Shown here one piece after another: positions 1,198 through 18,587 of a DNA stretch of 64,000 bases (its first letter is position 1; each line of letters begins with the position of its first letter). A program made the translations under genes and the position numbers. Below the pieces are notes generated by a model. That model did not search any database. It was not told the origin of the DNA and saw only the letters and a program-made list of their open reading frames with translations. Source of the DNA: Bacteroidetes bacterium ADurb.Bin013 (GTDB taxonomy: Bacteria; Bacteroidota; Bacteroidia; Bacteroidales; UBA932); NCBI GenBank assembly GCA_002071385.1, contig MWFB01000002.1, forward strand, positions 1-64,000, written 5' to 3'.

Positions 1198-1205
1198 TAT
1201 ATTTG
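1198..1205 (+). promoter_or_regulatory. Candidate minus-7 box of the defence operon
   Basis: TATATTTG matches the Bacteroidota TAnnTTTG consensus and ends 16 bases before the first start codon of the operon. Short leaders like this recur in the window. I see no TTTG/TTG minus-33 element at the usual 19-21 bp, so the call is weak. Confidence 0.35.
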
Positions 1206-1221
1206 CTAGTTAAGCAAACAT

Positions 1222-2601
1222 ATGGCCATATGTGCCATTGGAAGTCAAAAATCATTGGAGGTTAAGAAAAACATAGTAGTAGGTTTAGTTGATGCGGATT
1301 TATTAGATAATGGTACGCGTCATCCTAATCTTGTTATCTTAAAGCTTGCTGGTTATTTTCGTGATCATCACATTTCTTATGAATTAATCTTCGGAGACTC
1401 CGTCGATATCGAGAGGTACGATCGCATATATCTGTCCAAAGTATTCACTTTTACAAATCTGCCATCTTTTATTGTTGATTATAAACGACGGAATCCCAGA
1501 ACCTGGTCTCGTAAAATTCAAGAAGGTGGAACTGGGTTTTATGCAACAGAAGAGGATCGTGATGTTTTCAACGAAAAGCGTAAAGAGGACATGTCAAGAC
1601 TGAACAATGATCCTCTTTTGCCGAATTTCTCTATGGCACATCAAATGCCAGACTACAACGAATATAATCAATACATCGATTATGTTGTATCCCTCAAAGT
1701 TGAAGAGGATAGTAAGGCTTATCTCAAGAATTATAATATCTATCCCGACGCAGACTTCTTGAATGCCTCACGGACTAAACACAGAAAAAAATATAAAGAC
1801 TACCTTGACTATAGCATTGGTTTTTTAACACGAGGCTGTATACGTCAGTGTCCTTTTTGCGTTAACAAGGGTGAAAGGGGTATACACCCTTATTCAAATC
1901 TTGAGGATTTCGTAGATAAAAGCCGTCCTTTCATTTATTTGTGGGACGACAATTTCTTGTGTTATAAGAACTGGAAGGAATTGCTTCAGAAGCTAATTGA
2001 TACAGGAAAGCCTTTCCAGTTCCGCCAAGGTCTGGATGAACGCGTGATTGACGAAGAAAGGGCAAAAATGCTTAGTAAAGCACATTATCACGGAGATTTC
2101 ATCTTTGCTTTTGATCAGTGGAAGGATCGTGACCTTATTGTGCGAAAACTACGAATCTGGAAAACGTATTGTCCATCAAAAACGACAAAGTTCTATTTGT
2201 TCTGTGGATATGAACTTACCGCGGACAATGACACTAAGATCTTTGAAGATGTATATTACTTATTCAGAAGAATCCAAATCCTAATGAGTTTTGGATGTTT
2301 AGGATATGTAATGCGTCATGCAGACTACCAGAATCATAGACTTGGTAATATATATACTCAGATAGCGAGGTGGTGCAACCAACCACAGTTCTATAAAAAG
2401 ATGTCTTTTGAGGAGTTTATTCTTAGAAATCAATCTTACCAAGAGGAGCATTCCTCATCAACTAAGACATGCAAGTCACTATCCACATACACAGCTTTCA
2501 AAGAGACCTTTTTTGATCGATGGAATGAGATTGAGCCCCTGTTTCAAATGAAGTACGAATCAACGATTGATGAGTCTCTCTGGAGGAATAATAACGAATA
2601 A
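1222..2601 (+). CDS. Radical SAM protein, first gene of the drmAB-type operon
   Basis: A 459-residue protein with the radical SAM cysteine motif CIRQCPFC (C206, C210, C213), which should bind a 4Fe-4S cluster and cleave S-adenosylmethionine. The N-terminal part (about 15-85) reads VGLVDADLLDNGTRHPN and resembles the B12-binding-like region of a poorly characterised radical SAM family that I associate with mobile elements. The substrate is unknown. The stop is 2 bp before the NERD-helicase gene, so the two are almost certainly co-transcribed. The start at 1222 has no Shine-Dalgarno sequence; a TTG a few codons downstream is possible because homology-like sequence begins near residue 15. In classical DISARM this operon would contain a DNA methyltransferase. 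That this enzyme makes a different nucleic-acid mark is only inference. Confidence 0.8.
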   Translation: MAICAIGSQKSLEVKKNIVVGLVDADLLDNGTRHPNLVILKLAGYFRDHHISYELIFGDSVDIERYDRIYLSKVFTFTNLPSFIVDYKRRNPRTWSRKIQEGGTGFYATEEDRDVFNEKRKEDMSRLNNDPLLPNFSMAHQMPDYNEYNQYIDYVVSLKVEEDSKAYLKNYNIYPDADFLNASRTKHRKKYKDYLDYSIGFLTRGCIRQCPFCVNKGERGIHPYSNLEDFVDKSRPFIYLWDDNFLCYKNWKELLQKLIDTGKPFQFRQGLDERVIDEERAKMLSKAHYHGDFIFAFDQWKDRDLIVRKLRIWKTYCPSKTTKFYLFCGYELTADNDTKIFEDVYYLFRRIQILMSFGCLGYVMRHADYQNHRLGNIYTQIARWCNQPQFYKKMSFEEFILRNQSYQEEHSSSTKTCKSLSTYTAFKETFFDRWNEIEPLFQMKYESTIDESLWRNNNE

Positions 2602-2603
2602 CT

Positions 2604-4352
2604 ATGCCGATCAGACGCCACGACAGAAAAGATCTTGATAATCTTGAAGCTCTCATTTTACAAAATGATGGGCAGCCTCTTCACGGGGAAATAGATATGT
2701 ATAGAAGGATCTGTAAAGACTGTGAGAAAAGTCCGTATACCTGGCATTTCTGGCATGATCTGCGTCTAAATATTCCTATCAACAAACAAGCTGAAATTCA
2801 GATTGATTTCTTTCTAGTCTGTGAGAAGGGCGCCATTGTTGTTGAAGTAAAAGGCGGCAAAATCGGGATGGTAGAAGGTGAGTACTATTATGAGGTAAAT
2901 CATCAGCGTACTTTCATGACTAGAACACCTTTTGCCCAAGCTCGCGATTATATGCAGGCATTGATTGATAGTAGAATTATCAATAGATCTCAGATATACA
3001 TAGATACCGTTTGTGCGTTTCCTCACTCATCCCTAGAACATACAACTGACAATCCCACAGCTGATCTTGGATATAAATTGTGGTCTCGTAGCAAACAGGA
3101 AGATGAGAGCGTGTCATTTGCCGATTTTTGCATAGCTGTCCTTAATGAAGATCGCGAGCGCTGCTCAAAGCCATTCTATGATTTATATCCTGATGAAGTT
3201 GAAATTGCAATTAGTTCGTTGCTTAATACATTTGAGGATAGATCAAGGAATCCGTACTCGGAGCATAGCATCCAGTCTATACTTGAGCGCCTTCATATTG
3301 ATAATCTGAGTGTATTTAATAGCCTCCAGAAAAATGACAGGCTATTTATTGAGGGTGGACCTGGAACAGGAAAAACCACTATTGCAAAAGCATATATCGA
3401 TAAGTATCACACGCTTCGAGGATTATATCTGTGCTGGAATAAACTTCTGGATGCTCGTTTCAGGCATTATCTCGGGCAACAGGGATTTGTGAACTGTGAA
3501 GTGTTCCAATTTGCTTCTTATATACATAAGATTGAGAAACAACTAGGGCTTCCTTTTACGCCTATTGAGGACATCTCATCTGGCAAAGCAATATCTCACA
3601 TCAAAGATCTTGTGTCCCAATTACGCTCACTACCTGATTTTCTTCCATACGATTACATTATAGTCGATGAAGCGCAGGATACTTTGGATAAAGGTGTCTC
3701 ATATCTAATAAATGGTCTTTCTTCAGTTACTGCTGATGGCATAAAAACTGGTCGTTACCTTGTGTTCTACGACATTGAACAAGGTTATCACTACACGTCT
3801 GAGTTATCTGAGCAAATGGTGGATGAGCTTTACCCGTCAGGTGCCCATTTCTTACTTGACGTAAATAAGAGAGTGCCCACAAATAAGGAAATAGTTTCTT
3901 TTGCAAATTCTCTTCTTGGTGATAAGTCAGTTTCTGATGTTATAGCTGACATTGAGGAGTCTAATTATGATTCCGTAAAAGTATTCCATTTTGATGGTGC
4001 AAAATCAATAGTTAAGCATATTAACTCGATAAAGAAGGACATAAAAACATCAGGAACACCATGGGATGATTTCGTCGTTCTTGCTGATTCAAGCACAAAA
4101 CATCAACAGAGCGGCGGAGATGAAAGCCTGTATGACAGAATAGCAACTATCGATGGTATTAAAGATTTAACGCCTCAGAATATTTGTTCTGATACAGGCG
4201 AATTACCGTTTACGTCGATATTGACATATAAAGGCCTTGAGTGCAAGCATGTTGTGCTGGTTGTCAATAATAGATCTGATGTTGACAAGTTAGAGTTATA
4301 TGTGGGAATGACTCGCGCAATCGTGGATCTACAGATTTTAATTTTGGAATAG
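2604..4352 (+). CDS. NERD nuclease-related domain / UvrD-like SF1 helicase
   Basis: A 582-residue two-part protein. Residues about 25-130 form a NERD domain, a PD-(D/E)XK-like nuclease fold: D68 in QIDFF and E81-V-K83 fit the acidic/lysine core. A superfamily 1 helicase follows, with Walker A GGPGTGKT at 251-258, Walker B IIVDEAQD with D355/E356, a TYKGLE motif and a closing YVGMTRA motif VI. The expected activity is ATP-driven translocation on DNA coupled to possible cleavage. It lies 2 bp after the radical SAM gene and 9 bp before the 777-residue gene. In known DISARM operons nuclease activity comes from the PLD protein DrmC, which is missing here; this protein could take that role, which is an inference. 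Confidence 0.8.
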   Translation: MPIRRHDRKDLDNLEALILQNDGQPLHGEIDMYRRICKDCEKSPYTWHFWHDLRLNIPINKQAEIQIDFFLVCEKGAIVVEVKGGKIGMVEGEYYYEVNHQRTFMTRTPFAQARDYMQALIDSRIINRSQIYIDTVCAFPHSSLEHTTDNPTADLGYKLWSRSKQEDESVSFADFCIAVLNEDRERCSKPFYDLYPDEVEIAISSLLNTFEDRSRNPYSEHSIQSILERLHIDNLSVFNSLQKNDRLFIEGGPGTGKTTIAKAYIDKYHTLRGLYLCWNKLLDARFRHYLGQQGFVNCEVFQFASYIHKIEKQLGLPFTPIEDISSGKAISHIKDLVSQLRSLPDFLPYDYIIVDEAQDTLDKGVSYLINGLSSVTADGIKTGRYLVFYDIEQGYHYTSELSEQMVDELYPSGAHFLLDVNKRVPTNKEIVSFANSLLGDKSVSDVIADIEESNYDSVKVFHFDGAKSIVKHINSIKKDIKTSGTPWDDFVVLADSSTKHQQSGGDESLYDRIATIDGIKDLTPQNICSDTGELPFTSILTYKGLECKHVVLVVNNRSDVDKLELYVGMTRAIVDLQILILE

Positions 4353-4361
4353 TGAAACAAT

Positions 4362-6695
4362 ATGGACAACGACCGCTTCTATAATCTGATGCAAACAGAG
4401 TCTCCTTATTTCAAGAAGATTCTTGATACCATGTATCACTCCAAAGTTGATGAAGGGCAAGACTTTCTTCGTGTAATGGATACCACGATAAATAAATGTG
4501 CTCACTACCCAACAAACTGTGAAGAATCTATTTCTCTTCATGTTATATATTTGCCTAGTTGTCCATCATGGGCAAGAGAGCTACTTGTAAGGTTCCTCAT
4601 TCATAGAAGTACACTTTCACAAGATAAGGACATTATTTCCGTTGCAAAGAGAAAGACCGCCGGCCCTCTCTATTTGCCTATGGGTATGAAGGGTTCATCT
4701 AAGCAGGCTAAATTGCTTGAAGAAGAAAGGAAGTATTATAGAAGTATCATTCGCAATTTTCCGGAATTAGAGGATTTGGATTCTGATCCAATCAGATCTC
4801 TATTCGTTCTATCTGAAAACGATATTATTACAAGAGGGGAGGACAAGAATCCTTGGCTTTCCAAGTTATATTCCAAAAATATTGATTCTGAAAGTCCCAC
4901 AATTGTAACAACAGATCTCAATGCTTATGAAATAGAGGACCATATTGCAGAGCTAGATGACGATAATGTCCCCCATATAGAGAATGTCTATATATTCCAT
5001 TCTCAAAATAAAGGTAGAATTACATCATCGTTTAACATTGAGCAGATACAGAGATTGAACCAGTACGGTGTCGGGATAAAGAACATCTTCATATTCTATA
5101 TTACCGAACATCCATACAGGTTGTACTATGCTGATGAAACAGTTAAGCGAAAAATGCTCTCCTATGTACTAAAAAAAGAGATTAAGAAATATGATGCCTT
5201 TAATGGATTTATCAGCTTTACACCTGAGGAGATAGATATCCTATTCCATAGGAAAGTTGATAGACGTAGGCTAGAAATTGACGCTCCGGATAGGGATATA
5301 TTTACAACGGAATTAGATGCTGTATTTGACCAAATGCAGCACAATTATCGCATCAAAAATGACCTGGGTCTTGCGCTTAACAATCAATTGCAAGAGCAAT
5401 TTGTCTCTGAACTTAAGAAGAATGAAGGCTATGTACCAGACGATTTACTGAAACCATTCTTCGCATATTATAAGAACATATGGAGTGATTCTATCAAACA
5501 GCAAATTGAACATTTCATTGCTGATGCATCGCATGTAACATTCGTGATTCATCGTGATAACCGATACTTCAAAGCTTTTTTACGTGAGCAGTTTGAAACA
5601 GAAGAGAGGCATATAGATGTCAAGCAGATTAATGATTTAAAGAAGGGGATAAAAACAGAATGCGTTATTCTCTTCACCTATCGTTATACTGACCGCACAT
5701 ATAAATCATTCCCTAACTCATTTGACCCTATACCGATTACTCAGAATCAGCGATCACTGACCATTGTAAATAAACTGACGCATAACACTTATTTTGAGTG
5801 GAATTCGCATTACTACAAAAAGGATTATAATGGTTTCCTGTATAGTGATTTCAGGAAACAAGAGCTTGGTTGGAGTATTAGGAATTATCCAAGGCCTATT
5901 CTTCCAGACATCTGGGGTAACATTGAAGAAGCTGAGTCTGATCAGAGAGATTATCAGGTTGAAAAGTGTGCTGTAAATTATGAAAATGAAAGGAAGAAGG
6001 ACTATTTTGCAACCACAAAAGCTGTATATCTGAAAGCTAATGGGGAATATGGAGTGAGCCCACTTAAGGAACTCGCTAATACAGACATTGAAGAATTATT
6101 GGTGATCGATGAATTAGTTGATGTAGTAAGAGGTTCTCTCATCTCGAAGTCAAAAGAGAACAATACAGCAGAGGATATCATTAGAAAAGATCCAAAGTAT
6201 GGTCTGTCTCCAACTGAAATTAATTCAAACATAGAGTTATGGAAGTATCTCTTGATACAGAGAATTAATGAGTCTAGTATGGAGGCTGTATACTCTGAAC
6301 TATTCCATCAATCTCCTGAAATATCTCTTCGTGGTTTTGAACGGTGGACAGACTTAAGCTATCCCATGATTCTACCAAGAAGTAGAAAGAGCCAGAATGC
6401 ATTACTCACGTATCTTGGCTTTTCTATAGGTTCACCATATCATAGAATTGTTCTGTCCAAAAAGCTGTTGAGTATTAACGATTCAAGAACTCTCAATACA
6501 CAGATTGAAGCGCTCTTACAATCACTTATTACTCATAAGATTGAGACAAAGGACGAATTTGACTCCTTGCAGGAAAAGCACTCAGATATTTTGACACTTC
6601 TGGAAATATCGACCACCGATGATGCAAACGCGCTTATTGATTTGCTTGAGATAAAATTAAAAAAGATAGTTGAAATAGAATATGATCCAGACTAA
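4362..6695 (+). CDS. Uncharacterised 777-aa protein, possible DrmE-like subunit
   Basis: I do not recognise a catalytic motif. The 777-residue protein is rich in charged residues and aromatics, with no signal peptide, no membrane segment and no P-loop. A well-structured C-terminal region (about 625-725) contains FERW, ILPRSRKS and LTYLGFSIGSPYHR. It sits directly upstream of the DrmA-like gene, overlapping it by 14 bp. In class 2 DISARM the position before drmA is taken by drmE, a large protein of unknown function and similar size. DrmE-like is therefore a guess from position and length; only a profile search could settle it. Base composition matches the rest of the AT-rich operon, so it is an integral member. 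Confidence 0.6.
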   Translation: MDNDRFYNLMQTESPYFKKILDTMYHSKVDEGQDFLRVMDTTINKCAHYPTNCEESISLHVIYLPSCPSWARELLVRFLIHRSTLSQDKDIISVAKRKTAGPLYLPMGMKGSSKQAKLLEEERKYYRSIIRNFPELEDLDSDPIRSLFVLSENDIITRGEDKNPWLSKLYSKNIDSESPTIVTTDLNAYEIEDHIAELDDDNVPHIENVYIFHSQNKGRITSSFNIEQIQRLNQYGVGIKNIFIFYITEHPYRLYYADETVKRKMLSYVLKKEIKKYDAFNGFISFTPEEIDILFHRKVDRRRLEIDAPDRDIFTTELDAVFDQMQHNYRIKNDLGLALNNQLQEQFVSELKKNEGYVPDDLLKPFFAYYKNIWSDSIKQQIEHFIADASHVTFVIHRDNRYFKAFLREQFETEERHIDVKQINDLKKGIKTECVILFTYRYTDRTYKSFPNSFDPIPITQNQRSLTIVNKLTHNTYFEWNSHYYKKDYNGFLYSDFRKQELGWSIRNYPRPILPDIWGNIEEAESDQRDYQVEKCAVNYENERKKDYFATTKAVYLKANGEYGVSPLKELANTDIEELLVIDELVDVVRGSLISKSKENNTAEDIIRKDPKYGLSPTEINSNIELWKYLLIQRINESSMEAVYSELFHQSPEISLRGFERWTDLSYPMILPRSRKSQNALLTYLGFSIGSPYHRIVLSKKLLSINDSRTLNTQIEALLQSLITHKIETKDEFDSLQEKHSDILTLLEISTTDDANALIDLLEIKLKKIVEIEYDPD

Positions 6696-9600
6696 ACGAG
6701 ACTCACTAGAAAAGTTCATCCGGGAGCAAATGCTTGGCCCTGGTGCTTGCCTAGACCATTATTCCATTAAGAAGGATGACACTACCGAAGGAGATAGTGC
6801 CGAGGAAGTGTTGAATACTACTCCGGGTTCTGTATATAGCACAGGCGTTCTATTCCCTCAGCGAAAATTAGCGGAATCAACTGATGTCCTAGAAAGTGAC
6901 AATCAGTCTGAAAGTGTTTTTGATTCGACTGATGACTCCGATGACGACAACCAAGGCGAAGGATTTGAAGAAATCATGAATAGATCACAGAGTGACGATG
7001 AAGATCTGTTCTCTTTGAGCCAACGTTTTCCAACTACTATTGGACTGTCATTTTGTATAGAGAAAGAGACTCCTATCTCTGCAGAGGATCTGACGATATA
7101 TATTTCTGGAAGATACTATCGTAAAGTTCTGAAAGAGAATTACTCTTCAATAATTATCAATATTGAGGAGCAGAATAGTTTTGAAAAACTGTTCACTGAG
7201 TATTCGAGCGATTTAGCATCTTATTTTTCATATTCGGATAAGCAACTACATATTACACATAACTTTGAGAAAGAGGTTGGCGCTGTTAAAGATCTTTTAA
7301 ACGGCATAAATCAAAGGATATGTAAGAATGTGGCTTTCAATGAGGATGGCACTCTCGACAAAGAATATACTGAGATTGGAGAGACATATCGGTTCCTAAA
7401 ATCTTATAAAGAACGTCTGTGGCGTAAGCTGATGGCCGTTAAAAACGGAATATATCCCGCTGCCAAGGAGGTTGATGTGGTATTATCCAGGATAAAGAAT
7501 GTAGAAGTGGCTGAAACTTTTATATCGTACCTGGAAGATGCGATGAATATCTGTAATGCTAAGTCATTTGGATATTGGGTTTGTGAGTCATTTAGTGTAC
7601 CTGTTGACCTGTCCTCAATTGACTTGAATGCATCAGGGTCCAAGGTTATTTATTCGCCTAAAAAGAACTCTTCGCTCAAAGATGTAGTGGAGTTTCCTGT
7701 TGACGCAAATGGCACCTCCGCTTCATTGTCTGTCTGGATACAGATTCTTAATGCTAAGACTGCAGATAAAAAGAAAAAATACATAAAAGTTCAGTTAGAG
7801 AATACCTCAACACCATTTCAGGAAGATGAAGACCATTATTTCTCTATTGTAACGGAAAAAGTCAACCAGAGAAGTTTCTTTGGCGTAGAGATAAAAGTTA
7901 CGAGTCCTCTGTTAGCACCATACAAAGATGTAAAGAGCAATAAAACCCAATCAGACGTAGATGCTCTTAATTATCTATATCGTTCTATCGATGACTATGG
8001 AGTTGGACATTTGTGCTCTGTTGATTGGGATATATCTGGTGACAATCGATGGGTAAAAACGGAATTTATCCCTTCGTATGAAACCCCTGATGTAGAAGCA
8101 GTCCCAAGAGATAAAAATGAATATGTAGAATGTAATAATGAGCTGGTACCTAAGCCACTTCTTGATACATCAGAAACACTTCAGTTCAAATGGCTGTCAA
8201 CATTTTCTGAGGCTACTAATCAAGATGTGATTACTGGGCTATATAAGTTTATTGATGCATACCAGTTATGGATCGATAAATTAAAGGTTGATGTTAGTAC
8301 ACAATCTGAACACGACAAGATACTTGGTAATGCGAACATTTCTGAGTGTTTGAAAGATTGTAATCGTATGCGTGATAATGTCAAGATATTACTTGACGGC
8401 AACGATGAAAACATCACGTCATTCCGTATTATGAATTCAGCTATGTTCATTCAGTTATGGCATAGTAAGTTCAACAATGATAAGAAAACAAACATAAATT
8501 TTTATAAAGAAGCGACAGATCACATTTTTGGAGATTTTCCTGCAACCTGGAGACCATTCCAGCTTGCATTTATCCTGTTAAATCTGGATGGCATTATTCA
8601 ACGTCCAGATGATCAACGATGGGATTATAGGAATGAACTTGTCGACCTGGTTTGGTTCCCTACGGGAGGTGGTAAAACCGAAGCCTATTTAGGTATTATT
8701 GCGCTCACGATTATTCATAGAAGAAGAACTGAGCGCTGTTCCGGTGGAACAACGGCAATCATGCGTTATACACTCCGTCTTCTTGCTACACAGCAGTTCC
8801 AGAGGGCAATGAGGGTCATACTAGCACTAGAACTTCTTCGTCGATGGGATGAATATGGATTAGGTGATGAACCTATTTCGATCGGTCTATATGTCGGAGA
8901 TAACTCCCTCCCGAACAAAGCTGTTGATTTGCGTGAAGAATGTTTGAAATGGAATGATTTAACTCCGGATGGAAAACGTAAGGAATCAAAGATACCACTT
9001 GACAAGTGCCCGTGCTGTGGAAAACCATTAAAATACATTAATCGAGGTACTGATAGCGCCCCTGAGATAAAATTCCGATGTGACAATGTAAGATGTAATT
9101 TCTCAAATGAAATTCCGGTAAAACTGTGCGACGAGTATATATACAAAGAACCTCCTACATTGCTATTCGGAACCGTCGATAAATTTGCGGCAATTGGTCA
9201 TAGGGTGTCATCAAAACCTAATAAGGAGAATCAAGATTCAAGGAGGATTTTTGGAAAGGGACTGAATAATCTGCCGCCTGCTTTGATTATTCAGGATGAG
9301 TTGCACCTGTTACTTGGGCCATTGGGCTCCGCAGTCAGTCTGTTTGAATGTGCCATTGATCAGTTGTGTACATATGAAAGAAATATAAATGGAACACTGT
9401 TGAAGATTAGGCCGAAGATCATTTCATCTACAGCAACAACAAGGAATACCGAACTTCAGATAAGGGCCTTGTATGATCGTTCTGTTAGCATCTTCCCCAA
9501 ATCAGGAATTGATTATGATGACTCATTTTTCTCCTTCTATCAGAGGAAGAAAACTGCAATAGATGAGCATGAATCATTTGTTTCAAAACGTAAGTATATT

Positions 9601-10764
9601 GGTATTTTGCCTACTGGCAGAACGCAAATGACTACGCAGATGAGACTTGTTGCGACCATGTTTGTCCATCGTGCGATATTTGAGAGACAATACAAAGCAC
9701 GTCTTCAAAACAAGGACGTTGAGACAGCATTTGACTATTATCATTCAATAATAGATTATTTCAATAGTCTGAAAGAAGTAGGTAAAACTGATGCACAGTT
9801 CTTCACGGAGTTCACAAAATATACCAGGCGTTTATTCAAACGTGTGCTTAGATATGACAATATGCTTGAGTGCCTGTACTGTTATGATTCCGCTTTTAAG
9901 AAATCAGAATTAACAGGAAGACTTTCAGGCTCAGAGGTCGTTCGTGAATTGGATTCAGTAGGACAAAGGTGGTCATCAGACAATCGATTCCCTCACAATG
10001 ACGGAGGTGAGGAGAATTGGGTTCATGGTACTACTCCTCCAGATCTCATCTTGGCTACGAACATGATTTCCGTTGGACTTGATGTAGACAGATTCAACAC
10101 GATCATAATGAACTCAATGCCAAGAAATGTCGCTGAGTATATCCAGGCAAGTAGCCGTGTTGCACGCAATAAAAAGGGACTCGTTGTTACTCTTCACAAT
10201 CCTTTCAGGATGCGTGACATGTCTCATTTTGAACGTTTTAGAGAGTTTCATGAGAAATTGTACTACTATGTAGAGCCTATTTCTATTACTCCTTTCTCAA
10301 AGAAATCTGTAGAGCGATACTTACCATTGTATTTAGCTACGATGATTCGCCACATCTATAACGAACTAGCTGATGTTGAAAATGCAGCTGTTTTAAATGA
10401 TGCAAAAATGGCAAGTCTAAGAGCAGAGCTAAGCGCATATTTCAGGGAACGTCTTAAGAGAACAGGGGAGCTAAATCCTGAACTCAGAGAATTGTTGACT
10501 CTGGAGCAAGAATCTTTCATCGAAGAGTTTATTGAAAAGGCACTCAATGATTGGTTAAGTTTAGTTAAAGGGCAATCGTCTGGAGACTACAAATTGAGAT
10601 ATTCGGGTTCTGAATTCTTGAATGGTCGCAGCTCAACTAATTGGAAGGACTTATTTGTCAGCCTTGATTCTTATCAAGACGATGATACTGTATCATCATG
10701 GGCAGTACCAATGTCATTAAGAACAGTCGAATCTGAAGCCGTAATTAACGTAAAAGAACAGTAA
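6682..10764 (+). CDS. drmA: DrmA-like large SF2 helicase
   Basis: A 1,360-residue helicase of the DISARM DrmA type. Early sequence SVYSTGVLFPQ (about 50-60) precedes a strongly acidic, serine-rich stretch to about residue 110. The helicase core starts near 630: Walker A PTGGGKT with K665, DELH box at 872-875, SSTATTRN motif III, and motif VI QASSRVAR from Q1155. A four-cysteine zinc ribbon (CPCC at 776-779, further Cys to about 801) is inserted between Walker A and the DELH box. The stop is 1 bp before the DUF1998 gene. DrmA with DrmB forms the DNA-loading core of DISARM. Function in phage exclusion is inferred from this pairing. The gene symbol is by similarity only. Confidence 0.78.
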   Translation: MIQTKRDSLEKFIREQMLGPGACLDHYSIKKDDTTEGDSAEEVLNTTPGSVYSTGVLFPQRKLAESTDVLESDNQSESVFDSTDDSDDDNQGEGFEEIMNRSQSDDEDLFSLSQRFPTTIGLSFCIEKETPISAEDLTIYISGRYYRKVLKENYSSIIINIEEQNSFEKLFTEYSSDLASYFSYSDKQLHITHNFEKEVGAVKDLLNGINQRICKNVAFNEDGTLDKEYTEIGETYRFLKSYKERLWRKLMAVKNGIYPAAKEVDVVLSRIKNVEVAETFISYLEDAMNICNAKSFGYWVCESFSVPVDLSSIDLNASGSKVIYSPKKNSSLKDVVEFPVDANGTSASLSVWIQILNAKTADKKKKYIKVQLENTSTPFQEDEDHYFSIVTEKVNQRSFFGVEIKVTSPLLAPYKDVKSNKTQSDVDALNYLYRSIDDYGVGHLCSVDWDISGDNRWVKTEFIPSYETPDVEAVPRDKNEYVECNNELVPKPLLDTSETLQFKWLSTFSEATNQDVITGLYKFIDAYQLWIDKLKVDVSTQSEHDKILGNANISECLKDCNRMRDNVKILLDGNDENITSFRIMNSAMFIQLWHSKFNNDKKTNINFYKEATDHIFGDFPATWRPFQLAFILLNLDGIIQRPDDQRWDYRNELVDLVWFPTGGGKTEAYLGIIALTIIHRRRTERCSGGTTAIMRYTLRLLATQQFQRAMRVILALELLRRWDEYGLGDEPISIGLYVGDNSLPNKAVDLREECLKWNDLTPDGKRKESKIPLDKCPCCGKPLKYINRGTDSAPEIKFRCDNVRCNFSNEIPVKLCDEYIYKEPPTLLFGTVDKFAAIGHRVSSKPNKENQDSRRIFGKGLNNLPPALIIQDELHLLLGPLGSAVSLFECAIDQLCTYERNINGTLLKIRPKIISSTATTRNTELQIRALYDRSVSIFPKSGIDYDDSFFSFYQRKKTAIDEHESFVSKRKYIGILPTGRTQMTTQMRLVATMFVHRAIFERQYKARLQNKDVETAFDYYHSIIDYFNSLKEVGKTDAQFFTEFTKYTRRLFKRVLRYDNMLECLYCYDSAFKKSELTGRLSGSEVVRELDSVGQRWSSDNRFPHNDGGEENWVHGTTPPDLILATNMISVGLDVDRFNTIIMNSMPRNVAEYIQASSRVARNKKGLVVTLHNPFRMRDMSHFERFREFHEKLYYYVEPISITPFSKKSVERYLPLYLATMIRHIYNELADVENAAVLNDAKMASLRAELSAYFRERLKRTGELNPELRELLTLEQESFIEEFIEKALNDWLSLVKGQSSGDYKLRYSGSEFLNGRSSTNWKDLFVSLDSYQDDDTVSSWAVPMSLRTVESEAVINVKEQ

Positions 10765-10765
10765 T

Positions 10766-12880
10766 ATGGAGATTAATAAAGATAAGCAATATAACCAGGG
10801 AGTTGGTAAGTTTAAAGTTCTCTCATCAAATGCTGGTGTTGGCTCTATTATTACTACTAAAGCAGGGTATTTCATCATGCCTCAATCGGTGTCAATATGG
10901 GGCTTCGTTAAAGATGTAAATCGACAGATTGAGAACTTTGATGAGCGTGACCCTAAAGAGATTGCGAAAAAGGCCGGAGTTGATGTAATAGATGATCCTC
11001 GTTTTGTTAAGTTCCTTAAGAAGGATCAGAGTATACCCAAGCTTAGTATTCTTATTGATGTTCCACACCTAGCATTATCTGAATGGAATTATCCTCAAGT
11101 AAAGGAACATCCTCTATATAAGAGGCATTTAGAATTAATGGGTACAAGACTGGAGTCAGAGCATTTCTCAATTCCAGCAATTCATTTCCCTAGGTGGTTC
11201 TATAGTCGCAAAGAAAAACTGTTCATGCCTTATAATGATTGGAAAAGCAAATGGAAAGAAAACAGGTGCAATGGTGGAGATCTGAAATACTTCGCTCCAC
11301 CAAGAGATCCGTTCAATAAAACAGGGCGTACTTTTCGTGGTGACAATGACCAGTTAAAAGATATCTACGAGCCGCTAGTGCAAATACCTATCTTGTTGAT
11401 ATGTAAGAATGGGCATATATCTGATATACCATGGTATCAATTATTCTGTGCCGGTATTGATGGTCACAAACATGACATGGCTAGTGATAAAGGCTTTGAG
11501 CTTTTTGAATATCCTTGTCAAGATTGTGAACGTGGAGGTCGACACCAACTGCAATGGATTGAGAACCGCAACAATACCGAAAGTTGGGGTACTTTGAAGT
11601 GCAAAAAATGCGGTCAGACCTATGGTTTGGAAGGTATTATGAATATTAAGCCATTCTGTAGAGCTGAAACCCCGTGGAATGGACTTGGGACACACTCGGA
11701 TGAACCATGTAAAGATATTCATGGGGCAAGAGGAACTATGCAGATGGCGCTTGTCACAAGTAATAGTGTCTATTATGCTAATTCATTCAGCAGTCTATAT
11801 ATCCCCCCGTGTTATCTGCCGGACTCCATCCTTCCTCGTGATTCACAACGTGTATTGGACCTTCTGAATACCAAATGGTACCCTAAGGCCTTAGCCTCCA
11901 ACCCAGACCTCAGTAAAGAGGACTATATTAATGGGTTGGACCTTGTCAGCAAAGCAGATGATTCAGACATTGAAATATCAGCAGCTGACGCGAAAGTTAT
12001 CAAATCTAAATTCTTAAATATTGAAGACGAATTAGGTGATACCTACGAAGAGTACAGGTTTGACGAGTTCACTGTATTCTCCGGAAATACACAATCAATG
12101 TCTGATCAAAAGAAATTGGAGTTTAAAGATATTCAACTTCCAACTATCCTCACTCCATATTTTAAAAAGATTCAGCAGGTTAATACTCTTGCCATGACAA
12201 TGACTCAGCTTGGCTTTAATAGAGTATCCATTCCTGTTCCATTACGAAAAGATGGGAAAGTGATACGTGAATCTGGACAGCATATATATAATGAACCAGT
12301 AGAGAAGGTGTATTCACTTCCTGCAAATCAGAGTTTTGGAGAAGGCATATTCTTTGAGTTTGACCTTGAGCGTGTAAAAGAGTGGGCTAGTCAGTATGCA
12401 GAAGTTCTCGAGAAACGATATGATCAACCGGAGGGTGAAATCGGGAAGGATATAAAAGAGGAGATGAAGCAATATGGAGCCGCAATGTTTTACATGCTTC
12501 ACACCTTCTCTCACATCATACTTAAGGAACTAGAGTTTTCATGCGGATATCCAACTGCTAGCCTTCAAGAAAGACTATATTATTCGGATAGGATGTGTGG
12601 CGTCCTTATTTATACAACGGACGGATCTGAAGGAAGTATGGGTGGACTGGTTTGGCAGGGACAACCGAGATTGATAGAAAAGATCATTACATCTGCTCTT
12701 GAAAATGCTACGGATTGTTCTTCTGATCCACTTTGTTGGGAGAATGAAGATCAGCTTAACCTGGCGGCATGTTTTTCATGTTGTCTTGTCTCAGAAACAT
12801 CCTGTGAGAGACGAAATATGGGTTTGGACAGAAGGGCTTTGATAGATCCTGACTTTGGATTCTTTAAGGACCTATTGTAA
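10766..12880 (+). CDS. drmB: DrmB-like DUF1998 protein
   Basis: A 704-residue partner of the helicase. The N-terminus has the GVGSIITTKAGYFIMP pattern expected for DrmB. The middle has two zinc-knuckle pairs, C251/C254 and C279/C282. The C-terminal DUF1998 region (about 570-700) has MLHTFSHI, LIYTTDGSEGSMGGL and a cysteine cluster (SSDPLC, ACFSCC, SETSC) typical of the family. In DISARM, DrmB binds DrmA and together they recognise and clamp incoming DNA. This is the last gene of the operon; an A-rich gap and a large hairpin follow. No drmC and no methyltransferase lies downstream, which sets this locus apart from class 1 and class 2 DISARM. Confidence 0.8.
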   Translation: MEINKDKQYNQGVGKFKVLSSNAGVGSIITTKAGYFIMPQSVSIWGFVKDVNRQIENFDERDPKEIAKKAGVDVIDDPRFVKFLKKDQSIPKLSILIDVPHLALSEWNYPQVKEHPLYKRHLELMGTRLESEHFSIPAIHFPRWFYSRKEKLFMPYNDWKSKWKENRCNGGDLKYFAPPRDPFNKTGRTFRGDNDQLKDIYEPLVQIPILLICKNGHISDIPWYQLFCAGIDGHKHDMASDKGFELFEYPCQDCERGGRHQLQWIENRNNTESWGTLKCKKCGQTYGLEGIMNIKPFCRAETPWNGLGTHSDEPCKDIHGARGTMQMALVTSNSVYYANSFSSLYIPPCYLPDSILPRDSQRVLDLLNTKWYPKALASNPDLSKEDYINGLDLVSKADDSDIEISAADAKVIKSKFLNIEDELGDTYEEYRFDEFTVFSGNTQSMSDQKKLEFKDIQLPTILTPYFKKIQQVNTLAMTMTQLGFNRVSIPVPLRKDGKVIRESGQHIYNEPVEKVYSLPANQSFGEGIFFEFDLERVKEWASQYAEVLEKRYDQPEGEIGKDIKEEMKQYGAAMFYMLHTFSHIILKELEFSCGYPTASLQERLYYSDRMCGVLIYTTDGSEGSMGGLVWQGQPRLIEKIITSALENATDCSSDPLCWENEDQLNLAACFSCCLVSETSCERRNMGLDRRALIDPDFGFFKDLL

Positions 12881-13346: not shown

Positions 13347-13609
13347 TGTCCCACGTCCCAAGCAGTGGGACAGTGGGGACAAGTGGGACAATTTTGAGTG
13401 ATTTTGGGACGGTGTCCCTAGTTCTGGGACGCGGGACGGACATCTATCGGGACCAGTCCGAGTTCATCCATGAAAACTGCGACAACGCCTTGGTATTCAG
13501 GTGAAATGTACTGTGCAATCTGAAGAAAGTCCGGGTTCTCCAAAGGTGTCCCATAGTGGGACAATGCCGGAGTTTCTGTGGGACAGTCCTCGGGTGGGAC
13601 AAGTGTCCC
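13347..13609. repeat. Iteron-like cluster of TGGGACA / TGTCCCA
   Basis: About 14 copies of a 6-7 bp word in either orientation occur in 263 bp. Exact TGGGACA lies at 13,366, 13,384, 13,557, 13,579 and 13,595; TGTCCCA lies at 13,347 and 13,547. Near matches lie at 13,355, 13,374, 13,405, 13,413, 13,425, 13,432, 13,448 and 13,604. TGTCCCA-TAG-TGGGACA (13,547-13,563) is a perfect palindrome. The cluster covers the primase 3' end and the gap after it. Such clusters beside replication genes often mark a replication origin or the operator of a Rep protein. Confidence 0.6.
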
Positions 13610-14542
13610 GTCCTGGAGCTGGGCGATGAGCCGGTCGGCGATGTCGATGTGGGCTTCGCGTTCCTCTGGCGTGGCTGTGTTTTCGAGGTAGTCAGACACG
13701 GTGATGCGAAGTCCCGGGAGTTCCGAAGCCTTTTTCTTCCATTCCTGATAGCCGTCAACATCGGGGAAGGCGACAATGGTGCGCTGCTTCAGGACATTGA
13801 GCTTGTCCCCGAGCTGGGACTTGCCTCCGGTGGCGAGCCAGACGTATTCGGGCATCAGAGCAGAGCAGATGACTGCTGTCTTTTCTGATTCCACGAGTGC
13901 GACTGTGCGTCCGGGACACTTGGAGAGCAGATGTTCACCGAAGAGGCACTGGGTGAGTTCCCAGTCGGGCTTGAGGGCTCCGCTGCGTTTCATCAGGGAG
14001 TGTACCCAGTTGACTCTGCCGCCAATGTTCTCGTCTTTGATGCGGTGGCCGCTTTCAGGGTCGTATTTCATGACCTTACCGGTGCGGCAGCGGCCGTGGA
14101 CGTCGATCTGGAAGAAGATGACGTCACCGCTCTTTGTCACGCCGAGGCGGTATTCGTCTATCAGGCGAAGGGTGTTGTTCGGTCCGAGGATGGACGCGAG
14201 AAAGCGTGTAAAGGCGCTTTGATACTTGGGGTTGACTGACCGCGTAACGAGGTCTGAGGGAATGAAGCATAGTGGTTTTGGTGCTGGTTTCTTCTTTGGG
14301 AGTTTGATTACGGTGGACATGAAGTTGTCCCGCCAGTTGTCGCTGGCTTCCGGGTGATCCTGGAAGTACTGTGCGGGAGTGTAGTGGTAGCCGCAGGCGG
14401 ATTCGTGGTCGCATCGCCCTACAGCAGGGTTGAGCGGTTCTCCGTCCTCGTTGACGTAGAGGGTGAAGCAGCGCTTGCGTTCGCATGCAGGGCAGGTGTG
14501 CCTGCTCTTCATGCCTGTGTATTTCTCGAGTGACCAGTTCAT
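13418..14542 (-). CDS. Toprim-type primase of the mobile element
   Basis: A 374-residue protein. The N-terminus carries a zinc-binding finger (C17, C20, C25, C44, C50; CPACERKRC and GRCDHESACGYH) like the CHC2-type fingers of primases. The middle contains ALVESEKTAVICSAL, matching the Toprim-like glutamate motif, and later VAFPDVDGYQEWKKKA supplies the following acidic residues. It resembles the DUF6371-type proteins common on Bacteroidales mobile elements. The start overlaps the preceding ATPase stop by 4 bp (ATGA). It is expected to make primers for replication of the excised element. The last about 60 codons coincide with the TGGGACA repeat cluster. Confidence 0.72.
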   Translation of the reverse strand: MNWSLEKYTGMKSRHTCPACERKRCFTLYVNEDGEPLNPAVGRCDHESACGYHYTPAQYFQDHPEASDNWRDNFMSTVIKLPKKKPAPKPLCFIPSDLVTRSVNPKYQSAFTRFLASILGPNNTLRLIDEYRLGVTKSGDVIFFQIDVHGRCRTGKVMKYDPESGHRIKDENIGGRVNWVHSLMKRSGALKPDWELTQCLFGEHLLSKCPGRTVALVESEKTAVICSALMPEYVWLATGGKSQLGDKLNVLKQRTIVAFPDVDGYQEWKKKASELPGLRITVSDYLENTATPEEREAHIDIADRLIAQLQDGTLVPPEDCPTETPALSHYGTPLENPDFLQIAQYISPEYQGVVAVFMDELGLVPIDVRPASQN

Positions 14543-15549
14543 TCTTCTTCCTGTTTAGTTTCGTTCTTGAGTTGGAATACGATGCGTCCAGCCTTGGACT
14601 TGGAGATGCCGAGCTCAGCAGCGATCTCGCGGATGGACTTGCCGGCTTCTACGAGTTCGGCCACATTCATCTTCTCCTGGCTTACCTCTGAGTCCTCCTG
14701 TTCTTTGAGGTGTTCTTTCTCTTTGGCAAAGCCACGAGCTGAGAAGTGGACGAAGCCGCCTTCTGATACGATCTCGTGGACGATGACGTTGTCGGAGCCG
14801 TATTTGTATTCACCGGCGCGGACCTTTACCTGCTTGACGTACTTGATGCCGGGGTCGTTGGCTGACTGCCCGATGGCTATCACTGAGTCAAAGAAGTTGT
14901 AGAGCTTCTTGGAGCCGGCAAGGTCGTTCTGGGTGATAGGATTGGAGAGGGTGCGCTTTGGTGTGTGCGCGATGATCAGAAGGCTCCAGCCGTGCTTCTT
15001 CTTGATGGTCATCAGCTTCATCATGAAGAGGCCTGCCACGTCGCCTTTCTCGCTGCTGTTGCAGAGGTAGGTGAGGTTGTCAATGACGATGACACGGCAA
15101 CCGGTGCTGATGGCGGCTTCCTCGATGTTTTGGATGATGTCGTCTTCGTAGTTCTGTGCGTTGATGGCTTCCGGACGGATTTCTGCGCGGAGCAGATTGT
15201 CAGGGAAGATGTGTCGCAGACCTGTTTCCTGATCTGTGTAACGCAGCTGGAACTGCTTATCGGACAACTCGCAATCAACATAGAGAACAGGCTGTGAATG
15301 AGCAACATAGTCTGCCATCTGTACGGCGAAGATTGACTTGCCGATGTTGGAGTCGGCGAATAGGCAGCAGACCTCTCCCTCATACCAGAGGGAGTTGTAC
15401 AGGTCAACTGGGTTGGGACGGCGAGCGGCATCGATGACTGTCTGGTTGGCTGTCTTGATGGAGAGCATGCCTACGTAGCGTTCTCCGTCTTTGGGCTGGA
15501 CAGCGGATACCTGGGCGCGGATTGCGTCGAGTGCACTGCTATCTGACAT
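14539..15549 (-). CDS. RepA-like AAA ATPase with C-terminal HTH
   Basis: A 336-residue RecA/RepA-fold ATPase. Walker A is ADSNIGKS at 65-72, followed by VLYVDCELSDKQF and a Walker B-like strand VIVIDNLTYL. The C-terminus (about 305-330) is a small helix-turn-helix (IREIAAELGISKSKAGRIV). This architecture is common in replication and mobilisation modules of Bacteroidales integrative elements, where it likely acts as a hexameric helicase or helicase loader. It overlaps the upstream HTH gene by 11 bp and the downstream primase by 4 bp, so the three are one operon. A regulatory ATPase with no helicase role cannot be excluded. Confidence 0.72.
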   Translation of the reverse strand: MSDSSALDAIRAQVSAVQPKDGERYVGMLSIKTANQTVIDAARRPNPVDLYNSLWYEGEVCCLFADSNIGKSIFAVQMADYVAHSQPVLYVDCELSDKQFQLRYTDQETGLRHIFPDNLLRAEIRPEAINAQNYEDDIIQNIEEAAISTGCRVIVIDNLTYLCNSSEKGDVAGLFMMKLMTIKKKHGWSLLIIAHTPKRTLSNPITQNDLAGSKKLYNFFDSVIAIGQSANDPGIKYVKQVKVRAGEYKYGSDNVIVHEIVSEGGFVHFSARGFAKEKEHLKEQEDSEVSQEKMNVAELVEAGKSIREIAAELGISKSKAGRIVFQLKNETKQEEE

Positions 15550-15943
15550 ACTTCGATTCCTCCATGCGCTTTTGGATGTCAGACAGTCGGTACCTTACAC
15601 TGTTGCCAATCTTCTCTGGAACGAGGTAGTCTTTGCTCCAGCGCCAGAGTGTTGCAGAGGAAATGCCGAAGATTTCCATGACTTCGGTGCGTGTGAGGTA
15701 CTTTTCTTCTTCCTGCTGGGTGATTGTTGCAGGCTGTTCTTCTCTTGATGCAGCAGCGATGCTCTGACCGAATTCGAGCAAATCGCCAAGTTTGAGTGAT
15801 ACGATGAGGTCGGGGTTTTCTTTTGCGACCTCGAGTAAGTTTACATTCATTTTAAGTGTGAAACTTTGGGAAGTAGCAGCTGTCGTGACGTGATACGGCC
15901 CGTATTGACAGGCTGCGGAGGGCGTGAGAACGCCGTATTTCAT
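15539..15943 (-). CDS. Helix-turn-helix (excisionase-like) protein
   Basis: The C-terminal half has a MerR/excisionase-type winged helix: YLTRTEVMEIFGISSATLWRWSKD followed by the wing and a KIGNSVRYRLSDIQKRMEE recognition region (motif split for length). I chose the ATG at 15,943 because GGAGG lies five bases before it. An ATG at 15,955 sits almost at the predicted transcription start, and one at 15,850 (MNVNLLEV) would give a 103-residue protein closer to the usual family size. It may control excision of the element or transcription of its replication operon. It is the first gene of that operon. Confidence 0.7.
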   Translation of the reverse strand: MKYGVLTPSAACQYGPYHVTTAATSQSFTLKMNVNLLEVAKENPDLIVSLKLGDLLEFGQSIAAASREEQPATITQQEEEKYLTRTEVMEIFGISSATLWRWSKDYLVPEKIGNSVRYRLSDIQKRMEESKYVR

Positions 15944-15958
15944 TCTGTCCTCCATTTA

Positions 15959-15966
15959 CAAAGTTA
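15959..15966 (-). promoter_or_regulatory. Minus-7 box of the HTH-RepA-primase operon
   Basis: Read on the minus strand this is TAACTTTG, matching TAnnTTTG. It lies just upstream of the HTH gene and before the GGAGG at about 15,948. No clear minus-33 element was found. The 120 bp further upstream holds no gene that I can see. Confidence 0.45.
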
Positions 15967-16088
15967 GAAGTGTTCTTGCGAGGATAAATGAAAAATACGT
16001 CCCACCTGATTGAGGTGGAACGGTGATTTCACGGACGTTTCGGGTGAAACGCTATGTGCTTGTTTTAGAGATGTTTATAGATTCGGTT

Positions 16089-16991
16089 TCACTTGATGTT
16101 TGAAATGTCAAGTGAATTGAAGAAGGACTCTGCTTCGGTCCATCTAGCGGGTACGGTTCCCTTCATGCTGGGCCTTTTGAACTGAGCCGGCTTGTATGCG
16201 GCTGCGTCTTCTTTGATGCTGAAACGGAGGAAGAGATAGGTGAGAGTTTCCTTGTATGTCTTGCTGAGGACCTTCTTGGTGAAGAGCACAGCAGCAAGCG
16301 CCGCGAGTTTTGCGACGTGGCCGTCTTTCTTCTGTTTGCCCAGCTCGTTTACCTTTGCGTTGATTTTGGCAATCTTGATGGCATCGTAGTCCTTGATGAA
16401 GTAGTTTCGGAAGGCTTTGGTGGAGTCGATGTTTTCTTTGCCTATGGTCTGCGGTTCGTCAAGGTCTGGATCGTGGATGATGATTTTGATTGCGGTGTTG
16501 CTTCTGTTGGAGAGTTCGTCGTGGATGTCTCTGGCGTGATGGATATGCCACAGTTCAGCCCAGGCGATGATGTCGTACACCTGCTCCTTGATGATGTCAA
16601 TGAGTGTGATGCTGCGAAATGGCGTCTTGGTGTCTCGCATGTATTTGACAAGGAAGTCCTGGACTGGCGTGAAGTGTGGGTCAGACTCGACGATGTCCGT
16701 AGCGAAGGCGATGTCTTCGTTTTCTATTATGTGGTCGTAGATCTTCTTGAAGTATGCTTCTACTTGATCCGACGTAATTGTGCCTGGTTCTTCATTAAGT
16801 CCTATGCAGAAATAGCCGGAAAGGGCTGTAAGGGCGTTGTCAATGTCCATGGCAAGGATTTCCATATCTTCCTGGTCATAGTCGTCGAGATCGCCCTTTA
16901 TGAGGTCATAGTATGTGTTGAGTTCGTTGAAGAAGAGAAGCATGTTCTTCTCTGCTTCCCATAATTGCAGCTTTGATAAGTGGTCGTCCAT
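16089..16991 (-). CDS. Hypothetical protein of the integrative element
   Basis: A 300-residue, mostly helical, acidic protein without signal peptide or membrane segment. I recognise no domain. Conspicuous parts are an N-terminal acidic helix region (KGDLDDYDQEDMEILAMDID), a middle AELWHIHHARDIHDELSNR segment, and a basic, alanine-rich stretch near 215-245. The C-terminus KGTVPARWTEAESFFNSLD resembles the tail of proteins that accompany tyrosine integrases on Bacteroidales elements, but I cannot name a function. It lies between the integrase terminator and the HTH promoter, so it is probably transcribed on its own. A long plus-strand frame inside it is antisense shadow. Confidence 0.6.
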   Translation of the reverse strand: MDDHLSKLQLWEAEKNMLLFFNELNTYYDLIKGDLDDYDQEDMEILAMDIDNALTALSGYFCIGLNEEPGTITSDQVEAYFKKIYDHIIENEDIAFATDIVESDPHFTPVQDFLVKYMRDTKTPFRSITLIDIIKEQVYDIIAWAELWHIHHARDIHDELSNRSNTAIKIIIHDPDLDEPQTIGKENIDSTKAFRNYFIKDYDAIKIAKINAKVNELGKQKKDGHVAKLAALAAVLFTKKVLSKTYKETLTYLFLRFSIKEDAAAYKPAQFKRPSMKGTVPARWTEAESFFNSLDISNIK

Positions 16992-17098
16992 GGTCTTAGT
17001 TCGTCTTCTTTGTGCGTCAGGTGATGATTCCCCTGAAAGGGCGGGGAAAAGGGGAATGAAGTTACGAAAAATCTGCGAGCCACGGGACCGGAAAAATG

Positions 17099-17131
17099 AA
17101 AAAACCTCCCACTATTTATCAACAGGGGAGG
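17099..17131 (-). terminator. Rho-independent terminator of the integrase gene
   Basis: On the minus strand CCTCCC (17,131-17,126) and GGGAGG (17,110-17,105) form a stem with a 15-nt loop, followed by six T. It lies 20 bp after the integrase stop. Confidence 0.75.
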
Positions 17132-17150
17132 CTAAGTCATTTGATTACAG

Positions 17151-18518
17151 CTAGTCAAGCAGATTGGTCATTTCCTTGATCATGTCGTCATCAATGTCAC
17201 GATAACGGGCGAATGCCTTTGAACCTTCGCAGTGGCCGGAGAGCTTGCCGACAAGGTTCGGGTCTTTTACCTTCTTATAGAGGTTGCCGATGAATGTACG
17301 GCGAGCCATATGCGAGCTGGCCACGTCGCAGATTGGGTGCTGTTCTGACTGCTTGGTTACAGGATTGACTACGGTGACTACTCGGTTGATACCGGCTTCC
17401 TTCATCGCAACGCGGATGAGATCATTGAGTTTGCCCGTGCTCATGAAAGGGAAGAGGCTGTTCTTCTGCGTGCCACGGTAGCGCTTCAGGATCTCGATGG
17501 CGGTTGGTGCCAGGTACACCTTTACTACGCGCGGGCGCTCCTCTTTGGTTTTGCTCGGTATGTAGTGAACGGCTATTCCGTTTTCTGACTCCACGATGTT
17601 GTTCTCAGTCAAGGCGAAGAGGTCGGAGATTCGGCAGCCGATGTAGCACTGAAATACGAAGATATCACGCGCGATTGCTACTTCTTTGTTCGATTTTAGC
17701 TTCGTCTTGAATAGCAAGTCCCTTTCTTCGGTGGTCAGATAGTAAGGGGTGCCGTACTTCTGGGAGCCTACGGTGTATTTGCGGAATGGGTTGTTGTTGG
17801 TGTAGCCCATGTCTATGCACCAGCGCCAATATGCGCGGACTGCGCTCATGTAGGTGACGATGGCGTTGTCGCTTCGCTGCAGAGGGACTTTCTCATGCTC
17901 AGAGTTATCCCAGATAAGCTTGTACTTCTTGATAGGTGTATAGGTGGTTGCGAACTTGCCCTTCTTTGCAGTGAAGAATGTGTGCTCATCCCTGAAGAAC
18001 TTCTCAAGCTCTACCAGAGTGTCACCAGTGGCAGTATCAAGTTTGATAGGCTTGCCGGTGTAGAGTTCGAAGCGCTTGACGATGTTGAAGATGATGCGGT
18101 AACTCTTCAGGCGCTGAACGGAAACCTTCTTGAACTTGAGGAAGTCCTCGACCTTGTCCTGGAAGTAACGCTCTTCGCTCTCCGGATCTTTGTAGTTCTC
18201 GGGGAAGAGGAGGCGGTCAACGGTGTCTTGTGCCCAATCTGGTGCAAAGTCTGATATCGCCTTGTTGTTGCCTTTCTCTATGAGATGGGCTACGATTTTG
18301 TCCACGGCAAGCTTCGCTTCGCGGGCCTCTTGAACCTCAGGAGTGATGATTCTTGCCTTGATTTTGATTTCTCCGTCCACGAAGTACTTTGGAAGGAGGT
18401 AAACGTGGGAGTGTGCGCGCTGTCCGACATCACGTGTGTTGCGGTACCTCAAAAGGACCTCAGACTTGCCTGTATCCTTCTGTACGCGGGATGAAAGTGA
18501 TAAATATACCTTTGCCAT
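17151..18518 (-). CDS. int: Tyrosine recombinase / integrase
   Basis: A 455-residue phage-type integrase. From the start at 18,518 the catalytic set is R296 (GCRISDLF), a lysine near 323 (SKTK), H403-x-x-R406 (SSHMARR), H429 (LSGHCEG) and the nucleophile Y439 (ARYRDID). The N-terminal part holds an arm-binding domain and a SAM-like core-binding domain, as in Bacteroidales integrases. The ATG at 18,518 (MAKVYLSLSS) is preferred over one at 18,587 because a good promoter lies between them. The protein would cut and join the element at its attachment site. It is transcribed away from the right junction, as is usual for genes placed at the end of an integrative element. Confidence 0.88.
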   Translation of the reverse strand: MAKVYLSLSSRVQKDTGKSEVLLRYRNTRDVGQRAHSHVYLLPKYFVDGEIKIKARIITPEVQEAREAKLAVDKIVAHLIEKGNNKAISDFAPDWAQDTVDRLLFPENYKDPESEERYFQDKVEDFLKFKKVSVQRLKSYRIIFNIVKRFELYTGKPIKLDTATGDTLVELEKFFRDEHTFFTAKKGKFATTYTPIKKYKLIWDNSEHEKVPLQRSDNAIVTYMSAVRAYWRWCIDMGYTNNNPFRKYTVGSQKYGTPYYLTTEERDLLFKTKLKSNKEVAIARDIFVFQCYIGCRISDLFALTENNIVESENGIAVHYIPSKTKEERPRVVKVYLAPTAIEILKRYRGTQKNSLFPFMSTGKLNDLIRVAMKEAGINRVVTVVNPVTKQSEQHPICDVASSHMARRTFIGNLYKKVKDPNLVGKLSGHCEGSKAFARYRDIDDDMIKEMTNLLD

Positions 18519-18539
18519 AATGCGATTTGTTAACGATAA

Positions 18540-18570
18540 CAAAGGTACAAAAATCGGTGGACAAAAACAA
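18540..18570 (-). promoter_or_regulatory. Promoter of the integrase gene
   Basis: On the minus strand TTG (18,570-18,568), a 20-bp spacer and TACCTTTG (18,547-18,540) match the Bacteroidota minus-33/minus-7 pattern. Predicted transcription starts about 15 bases before the ATG at 18,518. Confidence 0.65.
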
Positions 18571-18587
18571 TTGAAATTGTCCACCAA

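Follow-up and report, generated by a model that had tools for sequence, protein, structure and literature searches.

A DISARM class 2-like operon of a Bacteroidales genome with a radical SAM gene in the DNA methylase slot

Five genes, designated A to E, lie on the plus strand of the window, by which is meant the whole 64,000-nucleotide stretch of DNA analysed here, and all five open reading frames are intact (Table 1). The initial annotation had described them as tightly spaced, and they are: the coordinates match, and the intergenic gaps range from −14 to +9 bases. A candidate promoter element upstream of gene A fits TAnnTTTGY, taken here to be the Bacteroidota −7 element, and is weak, TAnnTTTGC occurring 10 times on the plus strand of the window; promoter and terminator scans gave signals no higher than in shuffles. 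The G+C content is 38.7% in the operon versus 49–57% in its flanks, and a tyrosine integrase gene and small genes of mobile-element type are present downstream. The operon was therefore probably acquired horizontally, as a mobile island. No flanking direct repeat marking the island boundaries was found, nor were the ends of the element. The DNA on the 3′ side of the operon (window positions 13418–18587) encodes the integrase, an AAA ATPase, a DUF6371/zinc-ribbon protein and an HTH protein, and is typical of a Bacteroidota integrative element. The same 12.3 kb occurs in a second MAG (L005, WAS_Bin_9) with 2 mismatches in 12,308 bases relative to the window; this locus was rejected as an independent recurrence, as it represents the same population.

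Table 1. Coordinates of the operon, its surroundings and related operons (positions of the window, or of the locus named)
Feature	Coordinates	Strand	Description
Candidate operon promoter element	1198..1206	+	TATATTTGC
Gene A	1222..2601	+	Radical SAM enzyme, 459 aa; N-terminal Rossmann/B12-like domain; CxxxCxxC at residues 206–213; methyltransferase slot
Gene B	2604..4352	+	NERD nuclease and UvrD-type helicase, 582 aa; E64-D68-E81xK83, GPGTGKTT, DEAQD and GMTR intact
Gene C	4362..6695	+	Putative highly diverged DrmE, 777 aa (profile–profile comparison with the DrmE family)
Gene D	6682..10764	+	DrmA helicase, 1360 aa; PTGGGKT, DELH and QASSRVAR intact
Gene E	10766..12880	+	DrmB, DUF1998/MZB protein, 704 aa
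Tyrosine integrase	17151..18587	−	Downstream of the operon
NERD-type DISARM operons without DrmC	L037:448-12921, L115:2851-15379, L116:2842-15239		Recurrent order C5-methylase, NERD–UvrD, DrmE-like, long DrmA, DrmB
rSAM-ParB-REase-SNF2-ParB operon	L114:9091-14988, L127:11178-16539, L129:8872-14663		All six genes in L114 and L129; first five in L127 (p228 not seen)
Phage rSAM cassette	L048:4042-8950, L056:4519-9379		Several relatives in IMG/VR contigs

The two large proteins, previously annotated as DrmA-like and DrmB-like, are confirmed as such by NCBIfam profiles and by the sequences of the solved 7s9v DrmAB structure. Gene D matches the NCBIfam DrmAS profile (NF038325) at 3.4e-216 with 721 bits, missing the equivalog cut-off of 950, and matches the solved Serratia DrmA (PDB 7s9v_A) at 1.4e-106; Walker A, DELH and motif VI are all present. 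Val1349 of gene D aligns with Val1296 of Serratia DrmA, a residue that contacts a DNA base and has been proposed as a methylation sensor, and the ATPase activity of Serratia DrmAB is lower on 5-methylcytosine DNA (PMC9142583). Gene E matches DrmB_fam (NF038324) with 288 bits, above the cut-off of 240, and 7s9v_B at 1.2e-41; DrmB is thus a separate gene adjoining that of DrmA.

Gene C, as a single sequence, had no match in Pfam, PADLOC, NCBIfam or PHROG and none among plasmids, and its product had been left as an unknown protein of 777 residues. This assignment is corrected by profile–profile comparison. Homologues of gene C at other loci stand directly upstream of DrmA, which is the place of DrmE, and a profile of five C-type proteins matched a profile of 11 DrmE proteins, some of which match Pfam DrmE_C, over a collinear C-terminal region (E 1.1e-5, probability 82%; best of 60 column-shuffled controls, 0.41; unrelated profiles, 0.07 and 0.45). 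An initial comparison with smaller profiles was not significant, and significance was reached with the enlarged profiles only; the AlphaFold model of gene C has a pLDDT of 33. The gene C product is best read, from these profile matches, as a much diverged DrmE, a distant homologue, so that the core of the operon would be a class 2-like DrmE–DrmA–DrmB.

Gene B had been annotated as a NERD–UvrD protein, in agreement with a match of its NERD domain to PF08378 (2.5e-11) and with intact nuclease residues and UvrD-type helicase motifs. Viral-contig scans with the NERD alignment and with the gene C alignment gave no matches. The operon contains neither a methyltransferase gene nor a PLD gene (DrmC), as the initial annotation had stated, and no gene that would complete the system was found elsewhere: in searches covering PF00145, PF01555 and PF07669, the genome, which is 94.9% complete so that about 5% may be missing, yielded no C5, N6/N4 or Eco57I-type methylase, whereas most control genomes gave matches. 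The sole PLD protein of the genome has 532 aa and two PLD domains and is encoded outside the operon. The proposal that the NERD protein replaces DrmC is reasonable, but as a trait of a wider NERD–DISARM group (see below) and not one particular to the rSAM variant.

Gene A (hereafter rSAM) matches phrog_9298, 'radical SAM domain protein', at 1.9e-41 and has no match to Pfam or to any PADLOC family. Together with the CxxxCxxC cysteines (Cys206, Cys210, Cys213) and the predicted fold, this match upholds its annotation as a radical SAM enzyme. In an AlphaFold2 model built on 16 sequences (pLDDT 82), an N-terminal Rossmann-like domain is followed by a radical SAM barrel, and the nearest solved folds are those of MgmA, AprD4, MiaB, RimO, MtaB, OxsB and TsrM (Z 10–14, identity 10–14%), that is, of B12-type radical SAM enzymes and of MiaB/RimO/MtaB; the match is to a broad superfamily, some members of which act on proteins and small molecules. 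Enzymes with these folds attach methyl or methylthio groups to carbon atoms of proteins, RNA or small molecules, or catalyse the dehydration of sugars, and some modify RNA bases. The likeness to the tRNA methylthiotransferases MiaB and MtaB and to the B12-type enzymes MgmA, OxsB, TsrM and AprD4 lies in the Rossmann-like domain and the barrel, whereas sequence identity is 10–14% and the gene A family lacks a second conserved N-terminal cysteine cluster. The predicted fold fits DNA-base chemistry and is compatible with it, short of proof. A viral-contig scan with a single rSAM sequence gave no matches. Two candidate loci, L003 and L004, were rejected as chance matches (a histidine kinase and an unrelated protein).

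DrmA searches in Bacteroidota identified three loci (L037, L115, L116) with the order C5-methylase, NERD–UvrD, C-like gene, long DrmA and DrmB (Table 1). The DrmA proteins of these loci are the closest to gene D, with 39–43% identity over the whole protein. Because a C5-methylase stands at the first position in all three, the rSAM gene occupies exactly the methylase slot of its relatives. The sampling covered about 1,100 distinct genomes, with overlap between several samples, and the rSAM version of the operon is therefore rare. Recurrence of the five-gene order is partial: the full order with rSAM is found in one population only (the window and L005), and parts of it occur in three other loci. 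In two of these, rSAM–NERD(–C) is conserved at 41–45% identity: L047, a contig from human faeces that is catalogued as phage and in which no phage structural genes were seen, carries overlapping rSAM, NERD and C genes up to the contig end, and L036, a complete one-contig genome of another family, carries rSAM, NERD and a truncated C, with no DrmA or DrmB remnants detected by tblastn. The third, L128, is a decayed rSAM…DrmB remnant whose DrmB end is 78% identical. In a tree of NERD proteins, three rSAM-type operons group together and the methylase-type operons fall in the other group, with support of 99/100.

DISARM class 2 consists of DrmA, DrmB, DrmC, DrmE and DrmMII (PADLOC definition; PMC9252829). 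The present operon shares with it clear DrmA and DrmB homologues and the adjacent DrmE–DrmA–DrmB order, as in Bacteroidota DrmE loci, with gene C as the putative diverged DrmE; it differs in having rSAM instead of DrmMII and NERD–UvrD with no DrmC, and in a DrmA below the DrmAS cut-off. It is filed as a class 2-like variant and not as class 2, because DrmA and DrmB are present and DrmE is a distant homologue whereas DrmMII and DrmC are absent. Class 1 differs further, as the operon lacks the SNF2 helicase DrmD and the adenine methylase DrmMI, and the genome has no PF07669 or PF01555 member. In the NERD-type operons of L037, L115 and L116, four of the five genes are homologous and in the same order, and a C5-methylase stands where rSAM stands here. 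Nor is the operon assigned to TALON, ARMADA or BRIGADE, with which it shares a YprA-family helicase and, in the case of TALON, a NERD nuclease: TALON has TPR-CSD and TBP genes together with an inactive, fused RNase H, whereas the present operon lacks TPR-CSD and TBP and has NERD fused to UvrD; ARMADA has BrxHII-like and PglX-like genes; and none of the three has been described with a radical SAM gene (PMC12458937). In the literature searched, no description was found of a radical SAM gene in a DISARM operon or of the NERD-type DISARM operons of Bacteroidota, and the rSAM of this operon is absent from surveys of Dnd and BREX.

The same rSAM subfamily heads a second, six-gene operon, in the order rSAM, ParB-like, small REase-like protein, SNF2 helicase, ParB-like and p228, found in three families of the order (L114, L127, L129; Table 1). 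The REase-like protein (p140) has an 'IGEAKT' motif and a weak match to the REase family PF18743 (0.0012), and the SNF2 helicase is ZorD/DpdE-like. Like the DISARM-like operon, this one combines a leading rSAM with a helicase and a PD-(D/E)xK-type nuclease and has no methylase gene within the operon; it differs in having an SNF2 helicase (ZorD/DpdE/DrmD-like) and ParB-like proteins where DrmA and DrmB are found here. It looks like an undescribed defence system, no description of it having been found in the literature searched. In the rSAM tree, the rSAM of the window is nearest to that of L114 (SNF2 type), and starred branches unite L127 (SNF2 type) with L036 and L128 (both DISARM type); such branches force at least two changes of the DISARM label and at least three of the SNF2 label. 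This interleaving of the two operon types shows rSAM to be a swapped module that moves between systems, as methylases do.

Homologues of rSAM are common in phages and prophages. In gut phages of Firmicutes they occur in a cassette consisting of a short S-AdoMet synthetase-like (metK-like) gene, a ParB/N6-N4 methylase, rSAM and a C5 methylase (L048, L056; Table 1); in an archaeal plasmid, rSAM is followed by three methylases; and two loci from the family of the window itself (L122, L123) contain phage-like rSAMs flanked by or near methylases. Among 12 phage clusters, compared with a small reference set, methylases account for 6 of 46 genes at most two places from rSAM and for 3 of 178 further away (p 0.003), and a methylase lies within two genes of rSAM in only 4 of the 12. 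Methylase enrichment beside phage rSAMs is modest but visible in this small set. The Bacteroidales rSAMs form a group separate from the phage rSAMs, with support of 80/81.

The chance is put at about even that the operon is a mobile phage-defence system of DISARM class 2-like type, in which a DNA modification made by the radical SAM enzyme marks self and NERD–UvrD is the nuclease. By analogy with DISARM and with the ATPase data for Serratia DrmAB, DrmA (helicase) and DrmB (DUF1998) would form the core that loads on unmarked invading DNA and translocates along it, with the gene C product as a DrmE-like partner. NERD–UvrD would stand in for the PLD protein DrmC and degrade the invading DNA, and rSAM, in place of the cytosine methylase, would modify the DNA of the host, most likely a base, and the mark would keep DrmAB from being activated by self. 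The initial annotation had suggested that rSAM may replace methylation with another self mark, or that the system needs none. Replacement of the methylase has strong positional support in the C5-methylase that fills the same slot of the relatives; we infer the remainder: DNA as the substrate of rSAM, its product as the self mark, and phage defence as the role of the operon. Several observations weigh against this reading: the full order with rSAM is known from a single population, only 4 of the 12 phage clusters have a methylase within two genes of rSAM, one viral rSAM adjoins dCMP deaminase and thymidylate synthase instead, rSAM shows no recognisable DNA-binding domain, and its fold match is to a broad superfamily. 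A broader reading, held tentatively and at somewhat less than an even chance, is that enzymes of the rSAM family add an undescribed modification to DNA bases, that two or more unrelated types of bacterial defence operon (DISARM-like and SNF2/ParB) use it to mark self, and that phages, which carry the enzyme beside DNA methylases, possibly copy this mark. Known DISARM systems are paired with ordinary DNA methylases. If rSAM does the job of the methylase, Bacteroidota and their phages would possess a new chemistry for modifying DNA as well as a new means of self/foreign discrimination, and this would also inform the question of whether DrmAB responds to the modification of DNA in the first place; that a methylase and rSAM replace each other in a single slot of the operon provides a direct, testable prediction.

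Instead of DNA, rSAM may modify a protein of the system (e.g., NERD, DrmE or a ParB-like protein) or tRNA, and so serve effector maturation or protection of translation. Its nearest folds include the protein-acting MgmA and RimO and the tRNA-acting MiaB and MtaB, and no DNA-binding domain is recognisable in it; however, this alternative is considered unlikely, given that rSAM sits precisely where relatives of the operon have a DNA methylase, that it heads two operon types with different proteins, no protein being common to all of its settings, and that its phage homologues adjoin DNA methylases. Alternatively, rSAM could be a viperin-like antiviral effector that makes a modified nucleotide or small molecule, in which case no self mark would be needed and DrmAB would discriminate by DNA end structure. 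DrmAB favours 5′ overhangs, and a trigger loop keeps it closed (PMC9142583); the viperins of prokaryotes are defence enzymes of the radical SAM type (PMC12926258). Yet rSAM matches no PADLOC family, the MoaA fold (2fb2) scores Z 7.3 against its model, far below the 12–14 of the MiaB/B12-type folds, and carriage by phages would be odd for an antiviral effector; this role is considered quite unlikely. Finally, rSAM could be a phage gene, either a hitch-hiker or one for counter-defence, that came to lie in front of a DISARM operon whose methylase has been lost. This would accord with the abundance of its homologues in phages and prophages and with a complete operon in one population only, but is judged highly improbable: rSAM–NERD(–C) has been kept in L047 and L036, with overlapping genes in the former, rSAM and NERD are 2 bases apart in the window, and the Bacteroidales rSAMs stand apart from those of phages.

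Three further observations concern the loci surveyed. In L128 (10720–11583, genome G1024), the rSAM fragment is separated from the DrmB end by a 287-aa open reading frame for which Pfam gave no match. In the viral contig L061 (3376–7015), rSAM is located between dCMP deaminase and thymidylate synthase genes, with DHFR nearby, a setting that hints at pyrimidine chemistry. L121 (2861–14885) and L045 (4702–16553) contain additional DISARM operons with a NERD gene; one also has Vsr-like and C5-methylase genes, and the other is followed by an AIPR abortive-infection gene.
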